Below, in pieces: positions 3,714 to 16,107 of a DNA stretch of 20,376 bases. The stretch comes from a virus. The translations under genes were made by a program, and so were the position numbers. Position 1 is the stretch's first letter; every line of letters starts with the position of its first letter. The notes under the pieces were generated by a model, which made no database searches, was not told the origin of the DNA, and saw only the letters and a list, made by a program, of their open reading frames with translations. The DNA lies in the IMG/VR virus record IMGVR_UViG_3300010371_000577, positions 1 through 20,376 of that record; one strand, given 5' to 3'.

Positions 3714-3896
3714 ATGCCGTTGACTGCGAAGGGCGAGGAAATCAAGGCCGCGCTCGTCAAGGAGTACGGCGAAAAGAAGGGCGAGCAAGTGCTTTACGCC
3801 GGCAAGAACAAGGGCACATTCACCGGCATCGACAGCGCGAAGCTCGACGCCATCGTCGCGCGCTGCGACAGCTACGAAAAGAAGGCCCATGGCTGA
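3714..3896 (+). CDS. Small conserved phage protein (KGEEI...KNKGTFTGI type)
   Basis: 60 aa, starting 9 nt after the previous stop and overlapping the next gene by 8 nt. The sequence pattern MPLTAKGEEIKAAL, then EYGEKKGEQVLYAGKNKGTFTGI, is one I recognise from many small proteins near head genes of unrelated phages, sometimes as a separate gene and sometimes as a tail of a larger protein. The 'KGEQVxYAxKNKGTxxG' segment is the constant part. No biochemical role is known to me. Its codon use is like its neighbours, and the overlap with the Nudix-DUF2213 gene suggests coupled translation. Confidence 0.72.
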   Translation: MPLTAKGEEIKAALVKEYGEKKGEQVLYAGKNKGTFTGIDSAKLDAIVARCDSYEKKAHG

Positions 3897-4923
3897 GAGC
3901 GGCCAACCCGGCGATCTCTCGCCCTCCGCGCCTCCAGCAGACGGTTCTCCGCTCAAAGCCGCCGGCATTATGTTCATTGCCGATGACGGTCGCGTGCTGC
4001 TCACGCGCCGCGTCGGCCGTGATCATCCCGGCGAGTGGGCATTCCCGGGCGGCGGTGTTGAGCAAGGCGAGTCGGCCGAGGAGTGCGCCCGCCGCGAGAC
4101 GGTCGAGGAAACCGCGCTTCGTTACAAAGGCCCGCTTTCGCTCTGGACGCGGCGCATCAAAGACGGCGTCGACTTCACGACGTTTATCGGGAAGTGCGAG
4201 AAGTTCGTCCCGGAGTTGAACGAAGAGCACGACATTTTCACGTGGGCGCGGCCTGAGACCGCGCTCGCGACGATGCAGCTACATCCTGGCGCTGCGGCGG
4301 CGCTGCGACGATTCGACATGGACGAGCTCGGGATCGCCAAGGCGATGGTGGCGGGCGATCTCGTGAGTCCGCAGCGGTATGAGAACCTGTTGCTGGTGGC
4401 TCTGCGCATCACGGGCACCGGCGCGGCATATCGGTCCGGTCTCGATGAGTATGTTTGGCGTGATCCGTCGCTGTACTTGAACGATGAGTTTCTCGAGCGT
4501 TGTCAGGGACTCACAGTTATATGGGATCACCCGAAGAAGCGGATGATGAATTCCAAGGAGTTCAATCGACGCGTCATCGGATCGGTCATGATTCCCTACA
4601 TCAAGCCCGAAGAGCGCGAGGTGTGGGGCATTGCCAAGGTGTACGACGAGGAAGCTGTCGAGGCGCTTTCCACTGAGCAGTGGTCCACATCGCCTGGCGT
4701 GAAGCTCAAGACGAGCATGTCGCAAAAGCTTGATGACGGCTCAAAATTGCTGCTCGAGGGCGACGTCAGACTGTTGGATCACATCGCCGTCTGCACACTC
4801 GGAGTCTGGGACAAGGCCGGCCCGGCAAGCGGTGTTGATGTCGTTTTGGACTCGGCCGAACACGCGCCACTAGATAAGATTCTCGACAAGATTTATACGC
4901 GAGAGATCAGCTCGCGCTGCTAA
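3889..4923 (+). CDS. Nudix hydrolase - DUF2213 fusion (probable prohead protease)
   Basis: 344 aa with two domains. Residues about 22-145 are a Nudix fold: the box runs from Gly55 to Leu77, with Glu61, Arg69-Glu70 and the metal-binding Glu73-Glu74 present; the usual Gly before the last hydrophobic position is Ala76. Residues about 150-320 match DUF2213, a phage family found just before scaffold and capsid genes and thought to contain the head maturation protease; WDHP (His214) and LDHIAVC (His298) are candidate active-site elements. The start ATG lies in the preceding gene's end (8-nt overlap). Nudix enzymes hydrolyse nucleoside diphosphates linked to another moiety; the substrate here is unknown. 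The DUF2213 part probably trims scaffold or capsid protein. Protease assignment is by family and position, not by proven catalytic residues. Confidence 0.8.
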   Translation: MAESGQPGDLSPSAPPADGSPLKAAGIMFIADDGRVLLTRRVGRDHPGEWAFPGGGVEQGESAEECARRETVEETALRYKGPLSLWTRRIKDGVDFTTFIGKCEKFVPELNEEHDIFTWARPETALATMQLHPGAAAALRRFDMDELGIAKAMVAGDLVSPQRYENLLLVALRITGTGAAYRSGLDEYVWRDPSLYLNDEFLERCQGLTVIWDHPKKRMMNSKEFNRRVIGSVMIPYIKPEEREVWGIAKVYDEEAVEALSTEQWSTSPGVKLKTSMSQKLDDGSKLLLEGDVRLLDHIAVCTLGVWDKAGPASGVDVVLDSAEHAPLDKILDKIYTREISSRC

Positions 4924-4957: not shown

Positions 4958-4996
4958 AAATGCGGCGTGCGCCCTCAAAGCGGCGTTGCCGCATTT
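4958..4996 (+). promoter_or_regulatory. Perfect 9-bp inverted repeat ahead of the scaffold-like gene
   Basis: AAATGCGGC (4958-4966) and GCCGCATTT (4988-4996) are exact reverse complements with a 21-nt loop. The 3' arm ends only a few bases before the CGGAG at 4999-5003. In mRNA the hairpin would sit next to the ribosome-binding site; it could set translation level, block exonucleases, or act as a weak terminator (only TTT follows the stem). Function is inference. Confidence 0.45.
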
Positions 4997-4998
4997 CT

Positions 4999-5003
4999 CG
5001 GAG
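4999..5003 (+). promoter_or_regulatory. Ribosome binding site deciding the start at 5014
   Basis: CGGAG, 10 nt before the ATG at 5014. The in-frame ATG at 4960 has no such tract, lies inside the inverted repeat and would add 18 residues rich in Arg/Ser, so 5014 is preferred. Confidence 0.65.
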
Positions 5004-5013
5004 TCAACTGACC

Positions 5014-5829
5014 ATGGCTGATGAAGACAAGCTGGACAAAGTCCTGACCCATCTGGACAGCATCCACTCCATGTGCGATTCCTTCAAGACGCGTCTGGAC
5101 GCGATGGAGGAAGAGCACAAGAAGGACCGCGCCGACGCTGCCGAGTGGAAGGCTCGAGCCGACGCCGCCGAGAAGGAGCGCGCCGACAAGGCTCGCGCGG
5201 ATGCCGAAGAGAAGGAGCGCAAGGAGAAGGAGGAAAAAGAGAAGGCAGACGCCGAGGCGAAAGCCCGCGCGGATGCCGAGGAGAAAGAGAAGGCCGACAA
5301 GGCTCGTAAGGACGCAGAGGAGAAGGAAAAGGCCGACGCCGCCGCTCGCGCCTCTGGCAACACCGACCTCGCGCGCAAGCTCGCCGAGCTCGAGCGACGC
5401 ATGCCTGCCACGCTCGCCGATGCCGACAAAGCCGCCTTCGCCGATGCGCAGATGCGCGCCGATTCGGCCTATCAGGCGTGGAACCTCGGTCAGGCTCCCT
5501 ATGCCTTGAACGGCGAGACGCTGTCGGACTATCGCGTGAGACTGCTCTCGAAACTGAAGCAACACAGCCCCATCTACAAGGACTCGAACCTCGGCCTGCT
5601 CGTCGCCGATTCCGCCGCGTTCTCCGTCATCGAGAATGCCATCGTGAACGATGCCATCGAGGCATCCTGCAAGAGCATCACCGTGGGCGCGCCCCTTCGC
5701 GAGCAAGTCACGCGCAACGCGAGCGGTCACACCATCACGAAGTTCGTCGGCGACCCCGCGGTCACGTGGGGCCCGATGATGGGCGGTGCGACCAAGTTTG
5801 GCCGCATCTCGCGCCCCAAGTCCCACTGA
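5014..5829 (+). CDS. Coiled-coil head protein, scaffold-like
   Basis: 271 aa from the ATG at 5014. Residues about 25-130 are an extreme Ala/Glu/Lys/Asp/Arg run made of imperfect repeats of the type ARADAEEKE(K/R)xK, almost certainly one long helix or coiled coil. Residues about 137-266 form a separate globular part; the pattern LNGETLSDYRVRLL, HSPIYKD, then FVGDPAVTWGP is one I know from uncharacterised proteins placed between DUF2213 and capsid genes in other phages. Position between probable protease and cement/capsid genes plus the long charged helix suggests an internal scaffold or scaffold-domain protein; the conserved C-terminal domain means it may also stay in the virion. It has only one Cys in each half and no signal peptide. 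Role is inference; existence of the gene is secure. Confidence 0.75.
   Translation: MADEDKLDKVLTHLDSIHSMCDSFKTRLDAMEEEHKKDRADAAEWKARADAAEKERADKARADAEEKERKEKEEKEKADAEAKARADAEEKEKADKARKDAEEKEKADAAARASGNTDLARKLAELERRMPATLADADKAAFADAQMRADSAYQAWNLGQAPYALNGETLSDYRVRLLSKLKQHSPIYKDSNLGLLVADSAAFSVIENAIVNDAIEASCKSITVGAPLREQVTRNASGHTITKFVGDPAVTWGPMMGGATKFGRISRPKSH
5149..5343 (+). repeat. Degenerate repeats coding for the charged helix
   Basis: Within the scaffold-like gene the segment GCGCGGATGCCGA is repeated (near 5197 and 5267) and related GCCGA(C/G)GAGAAG units recur, giving ADAEEKE-type peptide repeats. The copies are imperfect, so this is repeated coding sequence, not a tandem array with a fixed unit. 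Confidence 0.6.
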
Positions 5830-5855
5830 TCATCTCGGCTCCCGCCATCATCCCT

Positions 5856-5868
5856 GCGGCGTAGCCGC
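5856..5868 (+). other. Small GC-rich hairpin between scaffold-like and cement genes
   Basis: GCGGC-GTA-GCCGC is a perfect 5-bp stem with a 3-nt loop in the 62-nt gap 5830-5891. No T-run follows, so it is not a convincing Rho-independent terminator. A GGAG tract (5877-5880) follows it, 11 nt before the next ATG. Confidence 0.35.
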
Positions 5869-5891
5869 CTCTTCCTGGAGTTCAATCTCAA

Positions 5892-6509
5892 ATGGGCATC
5901 ACCCTCAATCCGCTGCCGACCACCTTCGCCAGCGGGACTTTCAACGACAGCACGATCGGGTACGTGGCGGGGACGCTCTTCCCCAATGCCTCGACTCGCA
6001 ACCTCATCCGAACCGGCTACGTCGCCTCCTCGGTCACCGGCCTCATGTATGGCGGTGTCGGCGTCTCCGTGGCTACTCAGGCGGCCGCCTCTCCGATGCT
6101 GGGCCCCCAGCTCACGATCGCAACCGCCATCGCGAATCTCGGCGGCTTCCTCGTGTGGGACCAGTCTGCGGCCCCCGTGCAGACTCCGCAGTCGAACGTT
6201 CCGCTTGCCTCACCCGGCATGGGCTTCAGCTTCGCGGAATTCGGCCTGGGCCACGTTATCGCGCTGCCGATGTCGGCCGCGAACGCCGCGAACCTGCTCA
6301 ACGTGTCTGACATCACGCAGCTCACCTGGGACTACACCAATCAGGTCCTGCTGCCCTTCACGAGCGGCCAGATCCCAGGTCCGAGCGCACTGCCCGCCAA
6401 GATCATCGACGTGCAGATCGGCAACTCTTGGGTCGTCACGCCGAATTCGCCCTCCGCAGGGCAGGCGACGTGGAACTCGGCCGGCGCCTGCGTCGTGCTG
6501 CAGATCTGA
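5892..6509 (+). CDS. Structural cement (capsid decoration) protein, Gp24-like
   Basis: 205 aa, placed directly before the major capsid gene. The opening MGITLNPLPTTFASGTFNDS, followed by NLIRTGYVASSVTGLMYGGVGVSV, and later the LGPQLTIATAIANLGGFLVW and LQI-ending beta strands, resemble proteins called 'structural cement protein Gp24' in phages with DUF2184 capsids. Such proteins bind the outer or joint surfaces of capsid hexamers and stabilise the shell. The protein is rich in Ala, Ser, Gly and Val with few charges and no transmembrane segment, consistent with a beta-rich virion protein. A GGAG tract precedes the ATG. The alternative is a minor capsid or fibre protein; the pairing with the capsid gene favours cement. 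Confidence 0.7.
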   Translation: MGITLNPLPTTFASGTFNDSTIGYVAGTLFPNASTRNLIRTGYVASSVTGLMYGGVGVSVATQAAASPMLGPQLTIATAIANLGGFLVWDQSAAPVQTPQSNVPLASPGMGFSFAEFGLGHVIALPMSAANAANLLNVSDITQLTWDYTNQVLLPFTSGQIPGPSALPAKIIDVQIGNSWVVTPNSPSAGQATWNSAGACVVLQI

Positions 6510-11842: not shown

Positions 11843-13216
11843 ATGTCCATCGTTCAACTGAACGTCTCCACGCTGATTGGAGCGAAGCCGAGTACGCTTC
11901 AGCAGACTGGGGCGATCCTCTCCTTTGGCGCCACCACGCTCGCTGCCGGCGCCTACGCTGCTCTCACTCAGGACAGCGATCTCACCTCGCTCCTCGCCCC
12001 CGCTCAGTCACTCTCCTCACTCACCTGGTCCGGCGGCACCGTCACCGCGACAGCCGCCAACCCGATCGCCGGCCTCACCTCAGGCGACACCTTCTTGACG
12101 ACCATCTCCGGGGCCTCACCGATCGCCTACAACGGCACGGTCACAGCCACCGTGACGGGTCCGAGCACCTTCACGTACCCGCTCGCTGCGAATCCGGGCT
12201 CAGAGACCACCCCGGGCACGTACACGCCCGGCAATCAGGTGTACCTCGGTCTCGCCGTCAAAGACTTCTTCGCGCAAGGTACCCGCCGCGCCATCTACGT
12301 GCTCGAGCTCGGGGCGGCAGATGCGACCACCGGGCCCACCGCCTTGAGCACCTGGATCGCGGCGAACCCCGGCGTCTTCTACGTCTACCTCGTGCCCAAG
12401 TCCTGGGACGGCTCCGCTAACTTCATCGCGCTCGCCAATACGTTCAAGTCCGACACGTCCAAGACCTACTTCTTCGTCACGACGACCACGGGGACTTACG
12501 CGCCGTACGCCGGTATCAAGTCCATCTTGGCGATGGTGGAGGCGCCTGGCGTCTCGACGACCGAGTTCGATGCCGCAGAACCCATGCAGGCGGTGCTCTC
12601 CTATGCGCCGTCTTCAACCAATCGCCTGACCCCGCTCGCCTACACGTTCTTGAACGATGCGACCATTTACCCGGTCTTGGGCAACCAGTCGCTCCTCGCG
12701 GCGCTCGATGCCGCCAATGTGAACTACGTGGCGAGCGCTGCCGAAGGCGGCATCTCGAACGCGATGATCTCATCCGGGGCGCTTCAGGACGGCGAGGACT
12801 TCTCCTGGTGGTACGCCGTCGACTACTTGCAGATAAATGCGCAGCAGGTGAGCGCGAACGTCGTCATCAACGGGTCCAACAACTCGATAAACCCGCTCTG
12901 GTACAGCCAGGACGGCATCAACCGGCTGCAGGACGCGCAGTACAAGTTGCTCAAGAACATGGGCGCCTATGCGCTGACCCAGGCATCCCCGCAGCGCGCG
13001 ACGCTCGATCAGCAGACATTCATCGATGCGCTCGACAACGGCGATTACGACGGTCAGAACGTCGTCAACGCGGTGCCCTTCGCGGACTACATCGCGGCGA
13101 ATCCCGCGCAGTACCAAGACAACACTTACGGCGGCCTCACCATCGCGTTCTGGGCGCCGCAGCTCTTCAAGCACCTGATAATCAATGTGCTCGTCCAGAA
13201 TTACGTGGCCGGCTGA
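11843..13216 (+). CDS. Contractile tail sheath protein (DUF3383-like) with inserted beta domain
   Basis: 457 aa. Sheath subunits surround the tube and contract on infection. Support: the core elements VYLGLAVKDFFAQGTRRAIYVLEL, GVFYVYLVPKSWDG, KTYFFVTTTTGTYAPYAGIKSILAMVE, DFSWWYAVDYLQINAQQ, and the C-terminal GLTIAFWAPQLFKHLIINVLVQNYVAG, which is of the C-terminal arm type that links neighbouring subunits. Residues about 57-128 (LTWSGGTVTATAANP to TPGTY) form a separate Thr/Gly-rich beta domain in the N-terminal region, similar to one in the plug-like protein at 16790. CGGAG at 11832-11836 lies 6 nt before the ATG. The next gene, a tube protein, follows after 10 nt, as usual. Confidence 0.85.
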   Translation: MSIVQLNVSTLIGAKPSTLQQTGAILSFGATTLAAGAYAALTQDSDLTSLLAPAQSLSSLTWSGGTVTATAANPIAGLTSGDTFLTTISGASPIAYNGTVTATVTGPSTFTYPLAANPGSETTPGTYTPGNQVYLGLAVKDFFAQGTRRAIYVLELGAADATTGPTALSTWIAANPGVFYVYLVPKSWDGSANFIALANTFKSDTSKTYFFVTTTTGTYAPYAGIKSILAMVEAPGVSTTEFDAAEPMQAVLSYAPSSTNRLTPLAYTFLNDATIYPVLGNQSLLAALDAANVNYVASAAEGGISNAMISSGALQDGEDFSWWYAVDYLQINAQQVSANVVINGSNNSINPLWYSQDGINRLQDAQYKLLKNMGAYALTQASPQRATLDQQTFIDALDNGDYDGQNVVNAVPFADYIAANPAQYQDNTYGGLTIAFWAPQLFKHLIINVLVQNYVAG

Positions 13217-13226
13217 GGAATAGATC

Positions 13227-13664
13227 ATGCCAAACCCCAACATTTCGCCGGGAACGCTGAACCTCCTCAACACGAGCGTCACGATCCCGGGCTTTCCCTC
13301 GCTCAACGTCACCCCGTCATTCTTAGGCAAGCAGATGGCGCGCCTCTCGCTCGAGGGCGACGTAACCAAGCATTTGCCGGTCGCGGTGAGTGTGGTGCCC
13401 TCGCCGCAGGTCTATCTCATCGGCATGGTGACCATCAACCTCATCAAGTCCCAGGGCCTGGCCGCGCTCTACAAGACGCAGATGGATACGAACTCCATCC
13501 TGGGCGACATCACGGTCCGGCCGGACTCCACCGTGCTGCCGCCCTTTGACATGGACCAGGTCGCCATAGCGGACTGGCGCGAGATGTCGTTCAACGGCGA
13601 GGAGCCGGACATTTTCGTGACGTTGCGCGGTCGCTACCCGATCAACGCGAGCCTGTGGCCCTGA
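13227..13664 (+). CDS. Tail tube protein
   Basis: 145 aa directly after the sheath gene, the usual place and size for the inner tube subunit. The pattern VTPSFLGKQMARLSLEGDV, VYLIGMVTINLIKSQGLAALYKTQMDTNSILGDITVRPD and IADWREMSFNGEEPDIFVTLRGRYPINASL fits tube proteins: a beta barrel with a hexamer-forming loop and a helix at 'GLAALYKTQMDTN'. No domain beyond that. Tube assignment rests on these weak family resemblances plus strong synteny (sheath, tube, chaperone, tape measure). Confidence 0.78.
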   Translation: MPNPNISPGTLNLLNTSVTIPGFPSLNVTPSFLGKQMARLSLEGDVTKHLPVAVSVVPSPQVYLIGMVTINLIKSQGLAALYKTQMDTNSILGDITVRPDSTVLPPFDMDQVAIADWREMSFNGEEPDIFVTLRGRYPINASLWP

Positions 13665-13716: not shown

Positions 13717-14346
13717 GTGCGCATAGATCGAAAGTTGTGCTTGGTGCATCCGCTAGAGCGCGACGACGGCCTCGTCCTCTTCGCGCACTCCACGCCGATC
13801 GCGGAAGAGACCTTCATCGCGTATCACCGTCCGCTCACCATGACGTACGCGCAGCTCGACGCGGACGGGCTCATCCGAAGCGGCGGCATCCGAAACGCGG
13901 ACTTGATCCTCAAGGATGTCTGTGAGCGGATCGGCATGTGGAAGGACGATCCGATCGAGAAGCGCATCGGCGTCGAGCGCGGACTGCTCGGGGAAATCCG
14001 CCGCCTCACGAACGTCTTCGCGCCCACCGCCCAGAAATGGGAGATGGTGCCGCTCGAAGATTGCGTCGCGCGGGACATCCTATCGTCGCAGGAAGCGCGG
14101 GAAGTGCAGGCTGCTGCGGTTTTTTTTTGCTGCAGCTCGCATGGCTTTCCACGCCAGAATCTGAAGACCTTCCTCCAGCTATGCTCCGGTCGAATCGGTG
14201 CGCACGTCACGTACTCGAGTGCTACAGCCTTCCAGTCTTCCTTGCCGACATTGACGCCCGACGAGAATTCTGGCGTGACGGCGGCGGCCTGGTGGGACAA
14301 ATACTTGAGTGGGTCGCAACCGGAGAGCAGTTCGGCGAAGTCATGA
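13717..14346 (+). CDS. Tail assembly chaperone (zero frame)
   Basis: 209 aa, GTG start. Tail chaperones coat the tape measure during tail assembly. The N-terminal part (RKLCLVHPLE, YHRPLTMTYAQL, ADLILKDVCE, GLLGEIRRLTNVF, KWEMVPLED) is of the kind encoded just ahead of tape measures in related phages. The frame continues past a run of nine T (14120-14128, codons for Val135, Phe136, Phe137). Residues 138-209, including AFQSSLPTLTPDENSG, resemble the C-terminal part of such chaperones as I remember them, so the long form is likely real. A second frame (-1) is open from the T-run to 14435. Confidence 0.72.
   Translation: MRIDRKLCLVHPLERDDGLVLFAHSTPIAEETFIAYHRPLTMTYAQLDADGLIRSGGIRNADLILKDVCERIGMWKDDPIEKRIGVERGLLGEIRRLTNVFAPTAQKWEMVPLEDCVARDILSSQEAREVQAAAVFFCCSSHGFPRQNLKTFLQLCSGRIGAHVTYSSATAFQSSLPTLTPDENSGVTAAAWWDKYLSGSQPESSSAKS
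14120..14128 (+). other. Nine-T slippery run, candidate -1 frameshift site
   Basis: Zero-frame codons here are GTT TTT TTT TGC, so T TTT TTT (14121-14127) fits the X XXY YYZ rule for -1 slippage. The -1 frame then reads TTG CTG CAG on to 14435. The same run would also be the likeliest place for a homopolymer-length error. Confidence 0.55.
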
Positions 14347-14435
14347 AGGCGTTTCAGCGGGACTTCTCGTGGACGTATGCGGAGGAGTTTCGCAATCGGT
14401 ACGTGTTGAAGGCTGCGGCGAGCAGGGGGATTTGA
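14127..14435 (+). CDS. -1 frame extension of the tail assembly chaperone (G-T-like product)
   Basis: If ribosomes slip at the T-run, residues 1-137 of the chaperone are joined to 102 further residues here, giving about 239 aa, like lambda gpG/gpGT. After the slip the frame reads LLQLAWLSTPESEDL, then SLPVFLADIDARREFW, GGGLVGQILEWVATGEQF and AFQRDFSWTYAEEFRNRYVLK: no excess of Arg or Pro, unlike the same frame ahead of the slip, which is Arg-rich shadow. It ends one base before the tape measure ATG, closing what would otherwise be a 90-nt gap. Separate initiation at ATG 14181 is possible but has no clear ribosome-binding tract. It is also possible that the T-run has lost one T in this sequence and that the fused frame is the only product. 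Confidence 0.55.
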   Translation: MLQLAWLSTPESEDLPPAMLRSNRCARHVLECYSLPVFLADIDARREFWRDGGGLVGQILEWVATGEQFGEVMKAFQRDFSWTYAEEFRNRYVLKAAASRGI

Positions 14436-14436
14436 T

Positions 14437-16107
14437 ATGGCTCTGCGGATGCCGGTCGTCGAAATTCCAATCGACGATGCGCAGTTTCGCCGTTTCGCCG
14501 AGCTCTTCGCGCTGTACGAAGACCGGCTCGAAAAGAGTCCCGGCGTCTGGCAGAAAGTCAACAAGGAATTTCGCCAGTCCACGGCCGCCATCCTTGCCCA
14601 GAATCAGTCCATGAAGGAACTCGGGATGGGCAATCCGACGAAGCTCCGTCAGGTCGAATCGGGCTGGCGCAGCATCGCTGGCTTCTCAGGCGCCATCCTC
14701 GGCAACACGATGAGGATCACGCAGCAGCTCTTGAAGTGGGGCACGATCTTCGCCGGCGGTCTCGTCGGCGGCTCGCTCTGGGGCTTGACGCACATGGCGG
14801 GCGATGTCGCGGGATACCGCCGCCAGTCCAAGGGCCTCGGGATGTCGATCGGTGGCATGCGCAGCTTCGACATCAACATGTCGCGGTTCGTCGACCCGGT
14901 CTCGTTCCTGTCCTCGATCAACCAGGCGGTTTCGAACCCGGCGCTGCAGGGGCCGCTCTACGCCATGGGCGTGAACCCGAACGGCAGCACGGAGCAGGTC
15001 TCGCTCGCGATGCTCAAGGCCATGCGGCGCTTGGCATTGTCGACGCCCCGCGGCGAGCTCGGCCTCATGTCGCAGGCGTATGGGCTGGGGCCGTTCGGCG
15101 GGCTCGAGACGCTGATGCGGCTGCAGCGCACGCCGGCCAGCGAGTTCTACAAGCAACTGCGCGCGGAGCAGGGCGACCGCACCGGCTTGGGGCTGCCGCC
15201 TGGCGTCGCGGGCAAATGGCAGGAATTCACGACCCAGATGGAGCGGGCGCGCTCGGAGATCTTCAAGACCTTCGTCGTCGGGCTCGAGCCGCTCGCCGGG
15301 CCGCTGACCAAACTCTCGGCGGCATTCTCCGGGTTCCTCTCCCGCCTCATGTCGGGACCGATCCTGAAGCAAGGCGTCGACAAGCTCGCGGACTGGCTGA
15401 ACAAATTCTCTGTGGAACTGACCTCGCAGAAGTTCCAGGCGGCGGTTGCGAACCTCGTTTCGGATACCGGGACGATTGCCAAAGGGCTGCATCATCTCGC
15501 GAATGCCATCAAGGATATCGAAGGCGGGTATTACTGGTCGACCTCTCCCGTGAGCTCTCCCCTGGCGAATCCTGGAGCATTGGGTGCCGCCGCAAGAGAC
15601 AAGTTCGATCGCTTCATCCATGGAATCGGCAGGCCCGCAGGCGTTCGCCTGAACAATCCTGGCGATCTTCGTTACGCCGGCCAGCCCGGAGCGATGCTTG
15701 TGGGAAATGGTTTTGCCGCATTCAGGACGCCACAAGAGGGATTGACGGCGCTCGGACGACAGCTTGAGTTGTATGGGTCGCGAGGAAATAACACTCTCTC
15801 GGGAATCATCTCGAAATACGCGCCGCCATCAGAAAACGACACTGCGGCATATATTCGAGATATGGTGCGCCGGGTCGGCGTCTCTGCATCCTCTCGATTG
15901 GACCTGAGCGATCCGAAGGTGCTGGCAAGTCTTATGCAGGCCATGATCCGGCACGAAGTAGGTTATAACCCCTATAGCCGAGGCATGATCGGCAAGGCCG
16001 CCGTCACCGTCATCACGCCCGACTCCGGCATCGTGGTAACGGCACGCCACAAGTCAGGCGCCAACGCCGTGCTCTCCGCCGCTGGGCTCGCCGGGGTACC
16101 GCAGTGA
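14437..16107 (+). CDS. Short tape measure protein with C-terminal P5-like muralytic domain
   Basis: 556 aa, starting 1 nt after the -1 frame stop, with a GGGGGA tract ahead. Tape measure features: long helical N-terminal region, a hydrophobic Gly-rich segment at about residues 99-118 (KWGTIFAGGLVGGSLWGL), and position right after the chaperone. Residues about 400-525 match the lytic domain named after PRD1 virion protein P5: RLNNPGDLRY, GNGFAAFRTPQEGL, SGIISKYAPPSENDTAAYI and MIRHEVGYNPY. That domain should cut peptidoglycan locally to let the tail tube pass. Excluding it, the ruler is only about 400 residues, which predicts a short tail. Bases about 15530-15990 are poorer in GC (30 of 60 at 15781-15840 against 43 of 60 at 15061-15120), suggesting later acquisition of the domain. 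Confidence 0.85.
   Translation: MALRMPVVEIPIDDAQFRRFAELFALYEDRLEKSPGVWQKVNKEFRQSTAAILAQNQSMKELGMGNPTKLRQVESGWRSIAGFSGAILGNTMRITQQLLKWGTIFAGGLVGGSLWGLTHMAGDVAGYRRQSKGLGMSIGGMRSFDINMSRFVDPVSFLSSINQAVSNPALQGPLYAMGVNPNGSTEQVSLAMLKAMRRLALSTPRGELGLMSQAYGLGPFGGLETLMRLQRTPASEFYKQLRAEQGDRTGLGLPPGVAGKWQEFTTQMERARSEIFKTFVVGLEPLAGPLTKLSAAFSGFLSRLMSGPILKQGVDKLADWLNKFSVELTSQKFQAAVANLVSDTGTIAKGLHHLANAIKDIEGGYYWSTSPVSSPLANPGALGAAARDKFDRFIHGIGRPAGVRLNNPGDLRYAGQPGAMLVGNGFAAFRTPQEGLTALGRQLELYGSRGNNTLSGIISKYAPPSENDTAAYIRDMVRRVGVSASSRLDLSDPKVLASLMQAMIRHEVGYNPYSRGMIGKAAVTVITPDSGIVVTARHKSGANAVLSAAGLAGVPQ

Follow-up and report, generated by a model that had tools for sequence, protein, structure and literature searches.

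The tail assembly chaperone gene of this contractile-tailed phage very probably undergoes programmed -1 ribosomal frameshifting of the G/GT type, and the long overlap of its two reading frames appears, from substitutions in related loci, to be a relay of constraint in which the two frames have only about 30 nt in common, rather than a dual-coding stretch of 220 nt. The DNA analysed, referred to here as the window, is a 20,376-base virus contig from IMG/VR with 63% GC; it is probably a fragment, with terminase and baseplate J frames that overrun its two ends. Its gene order includes terminase, portal and a NUDIX-DUF2213 protein, and further on the sheath, the protein in the tube position, the chaperone, the tape measure, the baseplate hub (phrog_196) and the baseplate wedge/J protein (phrog_6, PF04865). 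The main features, all on the plus strand, are as follows.

11843 to 13216, plus strand: tail sheath (phrog_205, E 6.3e-20).
13227 to 13664, plus strand: tail tube, assigned by position and size (phrog_6566, function not given), flanked by the sheath and chaperone genes, an order also found in Mu and P2.
13717 to 14346, plus strand: zero-frame tail assembly chaperone ('G'-like), 209 aa, GTG start (open reading frame; phrog_11810 match).
14121 to 14127, plus strand: T_TTT_TTT slippery heptamer within a T9 run (14120-14128), predicted slip after residue 137 (sequence; same register in relatives).
14127 to 14435, plus strand: -1 frame extension ('T'-like domain), 102 aa after the slip (open frame; phrog_14324; purifying selection in relatives; AF2 model).
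14130 to 14190, plus strand: first ~20 codons after the slip, where the zero frame would be constrained as the end of the chaperone fold and the -1 frame free as a linker (O/E transferred from relatives; window against its nearest relative; AF2).
14190 to 14220, plus strand: crossover of ~30 nt, both frames probably weakly constrained (O/E 0.75 and 0.82).
14220 to 14346, plus strand: distal overlap, -1 frame probably constrained and zero-frame tail without detectable amino-acid constraint (O/E; openness test).
14437 to 16107, plus strand: tape measure protein with a lytic-enzyme-like C-terminal part (phrog_7694 and phrog_2276 tape measure).

An earlier sequence-only reading had proposed a tail chaperone with a -1 slip, a zero frame of 209 residues ending at 14346, a -1 frame open to 14435 and an overlap of about 220 nt. 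These limits are exact, the overlap after the slip being 219 nt, and the proposal itself is supported by gene order, the conserved slip site and the conserved -1 frame. The heptamer does lie at 14121-14127, with the slip at residue 137 of 209, and the -1 stop does end at 14435, one base ahead of the tape-measure ATG at 14437. From 14119, the zero-frame codons across the T-run read GTT TTT TTT TGC, and the fused product predicted from the two frames is 239 aa long, 137 residues of which are common with the zero-frame protein. The latter matches phrog_11810 over its full length (E 3.9e-24), and the -1 extension matches phrog_14324 (E 3.4e-8), a family matched likewise in 25 of 27 relatives. A Pfam search returned no chaperone family, and BFVD matches were weak, with named tail assembly chaperones among them.

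The position of the gene, between the tube-position gene and the tape measure gene, is that of G/GT-type genes. The tape measure protein is 27-30% identical over 98% of its length to Yersinia and Pantoea proteins in the equivalent position; it is short (556 aa) and, over residues ~390-550, similar to lytic enzymes and to other proteins from numerous unrelated phages. Searches with sheath, tape measure and chaperone all return one small phage set, whose Yersinia members are myoviruses by electron microscopy (PMC9224151, which does not mention a frameshift in these phages). Elsewhere in the window, a single ORF at 3889-4923 combines a NUDIX domain (PF00293, 2.8e-19) with a DUF2213-like part (6.1e-5) and is followed at 4960-5829 by a charged ORF, probably a coiled coil.

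The same organisation recurs in about 100 loci, complete genomes among them. Using tblastn, zero-frame homologues were found in 12 phage records, from Klebsiella, Yersinia, Pantoea and Shewanella phages, with 24-32% identity over 84-89% of the length; an alignment search added 80 IMG/VR loci, and related E. coli prophages occur in 90 of 5,426 complete genomes, strain W included. In these relatives, the zero frame runs 41-86 codons past the slip (overlap 126-261 nt), and the -1 frame, wherever the contig continues, is 96-123 aa long and reaches the start region of the tape measure. Close relatives of the window are fewer: a single-protein search with the zero-frame N-terminal part returned none, one with the -1 part gave a single 15-residue match, the nearest relative L011 was found again, the sheath search added L107 and L108, and genome contigs yielded none. 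Two of the phage records, OP650936.1 ('Hujiaoplasma phage zrk29-1', Tenericutes host) and OK094664.1 (Shewanella phage vB_Sb_QDWS), are both 47,902 long and give near-identical matches, so that one of the two host assignments may be wrong.

The slip site exceeds chance expectation. The T9 run is the sole homopolymer of at least six in the whole window, and encoding Val-Phe-Phe as GTT TTT TTT has a probability of 0.0014 under the window's own codon usage; this, together with recurrence in the same register in relatives that are mostly 25-40% identical at the protein level, points to more than coincidence. T_TTT_TTT lies in the same register, as T7-T9, in 83 of the 89 loci first examined, counts that are not independent as many loci are near-identical and that include L085, whose 5' end is cut off; T8 was present in each of the eight E. 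coli loci read. The other six (L058, L072, L074, L075, L086 and L088) carry G_TTT_TTT, 387 nt after the start, with an intact 107-aa -1 frame. In L107:4838-5547, closely related to the window (69% identity in the sheath), the slip region reads GTG TAT TTT ACG, leaving the T_TTT tetramer alone; its -1 frame remains open, and the ORF that follows (5567-6289) is unlike a tape measure. PMC4066793 lists U_UU.U_UU.U as one of the E. coli motifs that give more than 0.10% frameshifting without a stimulator, and U_UU.U tetramers as shifting if stimulated, so that these motifs would in principle cover the G_TTT_TTT and TATTTT members. In the six G_TTT_TTT relatives, the shift rate should be lower, or aided in some other way. 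A common downstream RNA structure was not seen (z -1.9 to +2.1), and Shine-Dalgarno-like stimulators gave good matches in some lineages with differing spacings, an inconsistent pattern.

According to the mechanism we propose, the majority of ribosomes would pass T_TTT_TTT in frame and produce the 209-aa zero-frame chaperone, while in a minority both Phe tRNAs would re-pair one base back and give the 239-aa fusion, consisting of the 137 common residues, a linker of ~20-25 residues and an all-helical domain of ~75-80 residues. By analogy with lambda gpG/gpGT (PMC5009743), the common part would bind the tape measure protein, and the tail tube would be the partner of the -1 domain. The fusion could also arise by transcriptional slippage, with RNA polymerase adding one U on the T-run and ordinary translation doing the rest; T8-T9 runs can be slippage-prone in bacteria, where the usual threshold is nine nucleotides (PMC1088944), and the window's T9 could make such a contribution. 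However, the -1 frame is retained in members with T7 (L006, L013, L015, L108), T6 (the six G_TTT_TTT loci) and TATTTT (L107), and two zero-frame Phe codons hold the exact register needed for ribosomal slippage. The T6-T7 members thus disfavour transcriptional slippage as the general mechanism, and we consider it improbable.

To assess constraint along the overlap, a FastTree tree was made for the largest ungapped group, with 54 distinct overlap sequences; changes were mapped onto it by parsimony, classed by their consequences in the two frames and compared with random changes introduced into the same parents. A second run added 120 nt upstream, used 59 sequences and resolved the changes by position, with upstream and downstream controls. 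Over the whole overlap, 82 changes nonsynonymous in both frames were observed against 149 expected (p<0.001, 54 sequences, robust to kappa 2-5), and nonsynonymous observed/expected ratios (O/E) were 0.84 and 0.86 in the two frames (p<0.001). This depletion in both frames, along with PHROG family matches for each, is what would be expected if both proteins were selected along the entire overlap. Resolved by position, however, the constraint is sequential. Upstream of the slip, O/E is 0.17-0.61 in the zero frame and 1.19-1.25 in the -1 frame (59 sequences); from 5 to 65 nt after it, the values are 0.52-0.60 and 1.22-1.24; from 65 to 95 nt, 0.75 and 0.82; and from 95 to 189 nt, 0.88-1.20 and 0.46-0.73. 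Past the zero-frame stop, the -1 frame stands at 0.38-0.54 (0.07-0.36 on short branches). Short branches sharpen the picture, with 0.23 in the zero frame and 1.33 in the -1 frame at 5-65 nt, and 1.15 and 0.39 at 95-189 nt, and values for the third frame are close to 1 or higher at all positions. The hand-over was measured in the enterobacterial group, from which the window positions given above were transferred; in the window itself, comparison with L011 gives identities along the overlap of 18/24, 11/24 and 11/23 in the zero frame and 11/24, 15/24 and 13/24 in the -1 frame, the same direction as in that group from few changes in one pair. The same substitution-class test was not significant in a six-sequence Rac-type set.

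Open-frame tests bear on the same question. When -1 codons were synonymously reshuffled and the frequency with which the zero frame stayed open to its observed stop was counted, openness over the whole overlap, its proximal part included, had a P of 0.02 in 12 lineages. The distal part did not exceed what the -1 protein alone would lead one to expect (Fisher P 0.18 in 12 less related lineages, 0.15 in 17 lineages), and selection keeping the distal zero-frame tail open was rejected at these values. The length of that tail is therefore explicable without function. In the reverse test, a -1 frame this open given the zero-frame protein had a P of 0.003. Where lineages resemble one another in the distal zero frame, as in SLPTS and IPS, the nucleotides concerned also encode the conserved -1 part, and the resemblance can thus be an imprint of the conserved -1 protein. 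With some 30 nt of common constraint, a distal zero frame at 0.9-1.2, a proximal -1 frame at 1.2 and distal openness within expectation, selection on both proteins throughout the overlap is highly unlikely. The sequence-only reading had offered a large dual-coding stretch or a shadow zero-frame tail, to be settled by codon-substitution analysis; that analysis puts constraint on the zero frame first and then on the -1 frame, so that coding appears to hold for ~25 zero-frame codons after the slip (0.5-0.6), the distal 35-40 seem to be a shadow cast by the constrained -1 frame, and each of the two options is right for a different portion of the overlap.

A -1 gene with its own start was rejected: in seven loci (L003, L006, L007, L018, L024, L058, L062), -1 codons 1-30 after the slip contain no ATG, GTG or TTG, and the -1 frame is open merely 12-33 nt upstream of the slip, which makes a separate gene unlikely there. 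A single genuine frame, with the -1 frame open by chance or a T-run error hiding one fused gene, might be suggested by the fact that the -1 extension is unannotated in E. coli and most phage records seen, yet this has next to no probability in view of the organisation repeated in ~100 loci, the -1 constraint beyond the overlap and the origin of the ninth T as a substitution. L011 (zero frame 69% identical) reads GTT TTT TTT ACA at the place of the window's GTT TTT TTT TGC, so the ninth T reflects a base substitution with no change of frame; a mis-sized T-run, which had also been suspected, is refuted by this comparison and by the heptamer register kept in relatives, which likewise reject a sequencing error. 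No homologue with an uninterrupted fused frame (10 T) was seen among the ~100 loci, and the -1 frame of the homologues is conserved and under purifying selection.

Both the zero-frame protein and the -1 extension are predicted to fold. The zero-frame model (mean pLDDT 87) has an alpha/beta fold with the slip inside helix 124-141; after the slip, it shows a helix at 146-158 and short elements to residue 175, residues 203-209 falling below 50, and its distal part calls for caution as alignment conservation there is possibly imprinted by the -1 frame. The AF2 model of the -1 domain (mean pLDDT 83) is all-alpha, with residues 1-20 at 53-62 and later ones high, in agreement with a linker followed by a domain. 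PDB searches with both models gave no useful fold match. As the slip falls within the chaperone fold, the last folded zero-frame segment would be missing from the fusion, and the two products would carry alternative ends. More tentatively, and with somewhat less than even probability in our judgement, the frameshift may act as a C-terminal swap rather than an add-on, in which the fusion loses a conserved helix found only in the zero-frame product, the two exclusive ends serve different binding roles, and the overlap has evolved as a hand-over with almost no double constraint.

If these assignments hold, two protein families listed as unknown gain a probable function, together with a C-terminal domain that had been missing. 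Their members come from prophages of E. coli, from phages of Klebsiella, Yersinia, Pantoea and Shewanella and from metagenomic phages, with the -1 part mostly unannotated; they provide a natural example of a long overlap tolerated through constraint passing between frames, and E. coli W carries a version in which the mechanism is testable.

Among known systems, lambda gpG/gpGT likewise comprises two tail chaperones made from one start by a -1 frameshift, encoded between the major tail protein and the tape measure (PMC5009743), and no sequence relation between those proteins and the present ones was shown. Lambda slips at G_GGA_AAG, after which its zero frame continues for 18 nt, whereas in the window it continues for 219 nt and gives the zero-frame product a folded end of its own, which bears out the earlier observation that the lambda-type slip is near the end of G and the present one deep. 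Closer in tail type is P2 gpE/gpE+E', with a contractile tail, the order sheath, tube, chaperone and tape measure (also that of Mu) and a U-rich heptamer (T_TTT_TTG in P2), although its slip lies 21 nt ahead of the zero-frame end. The window (219 nt) and its relatives (126-261 nt) therefore fall outside the short-overlap subtype of lambda and P2, in which the slip is within ~10 codons of the zero-frame stop. A deep slip is nevertheless not new, because SPP1 gp17.5/gp17.5*, of a siphovirus of a Gram-positive host likened to the present gene by its published description, has a predicted -1 slip (UUUUUUC) deep in the chaperone gene, sharing only 112 of 173 residues with a fusion of 297 aa (PMC6316719). 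As for the families themselves, phrog_11810 and phrog_14324 contain the zero-frame protein and the -1 domain and are listed as separate families of unknown function, not as one frameshifted gene. No paper describing them as frameshifted was found in the part of the literature covered, and they may already be among the five enterobacterial prophage frameshift clusters of PMC4066793. The kind of system is thus already known; the additions made here are a new pair of families, the range over which they occur and a measurement of how constraint is handed over between the frames.
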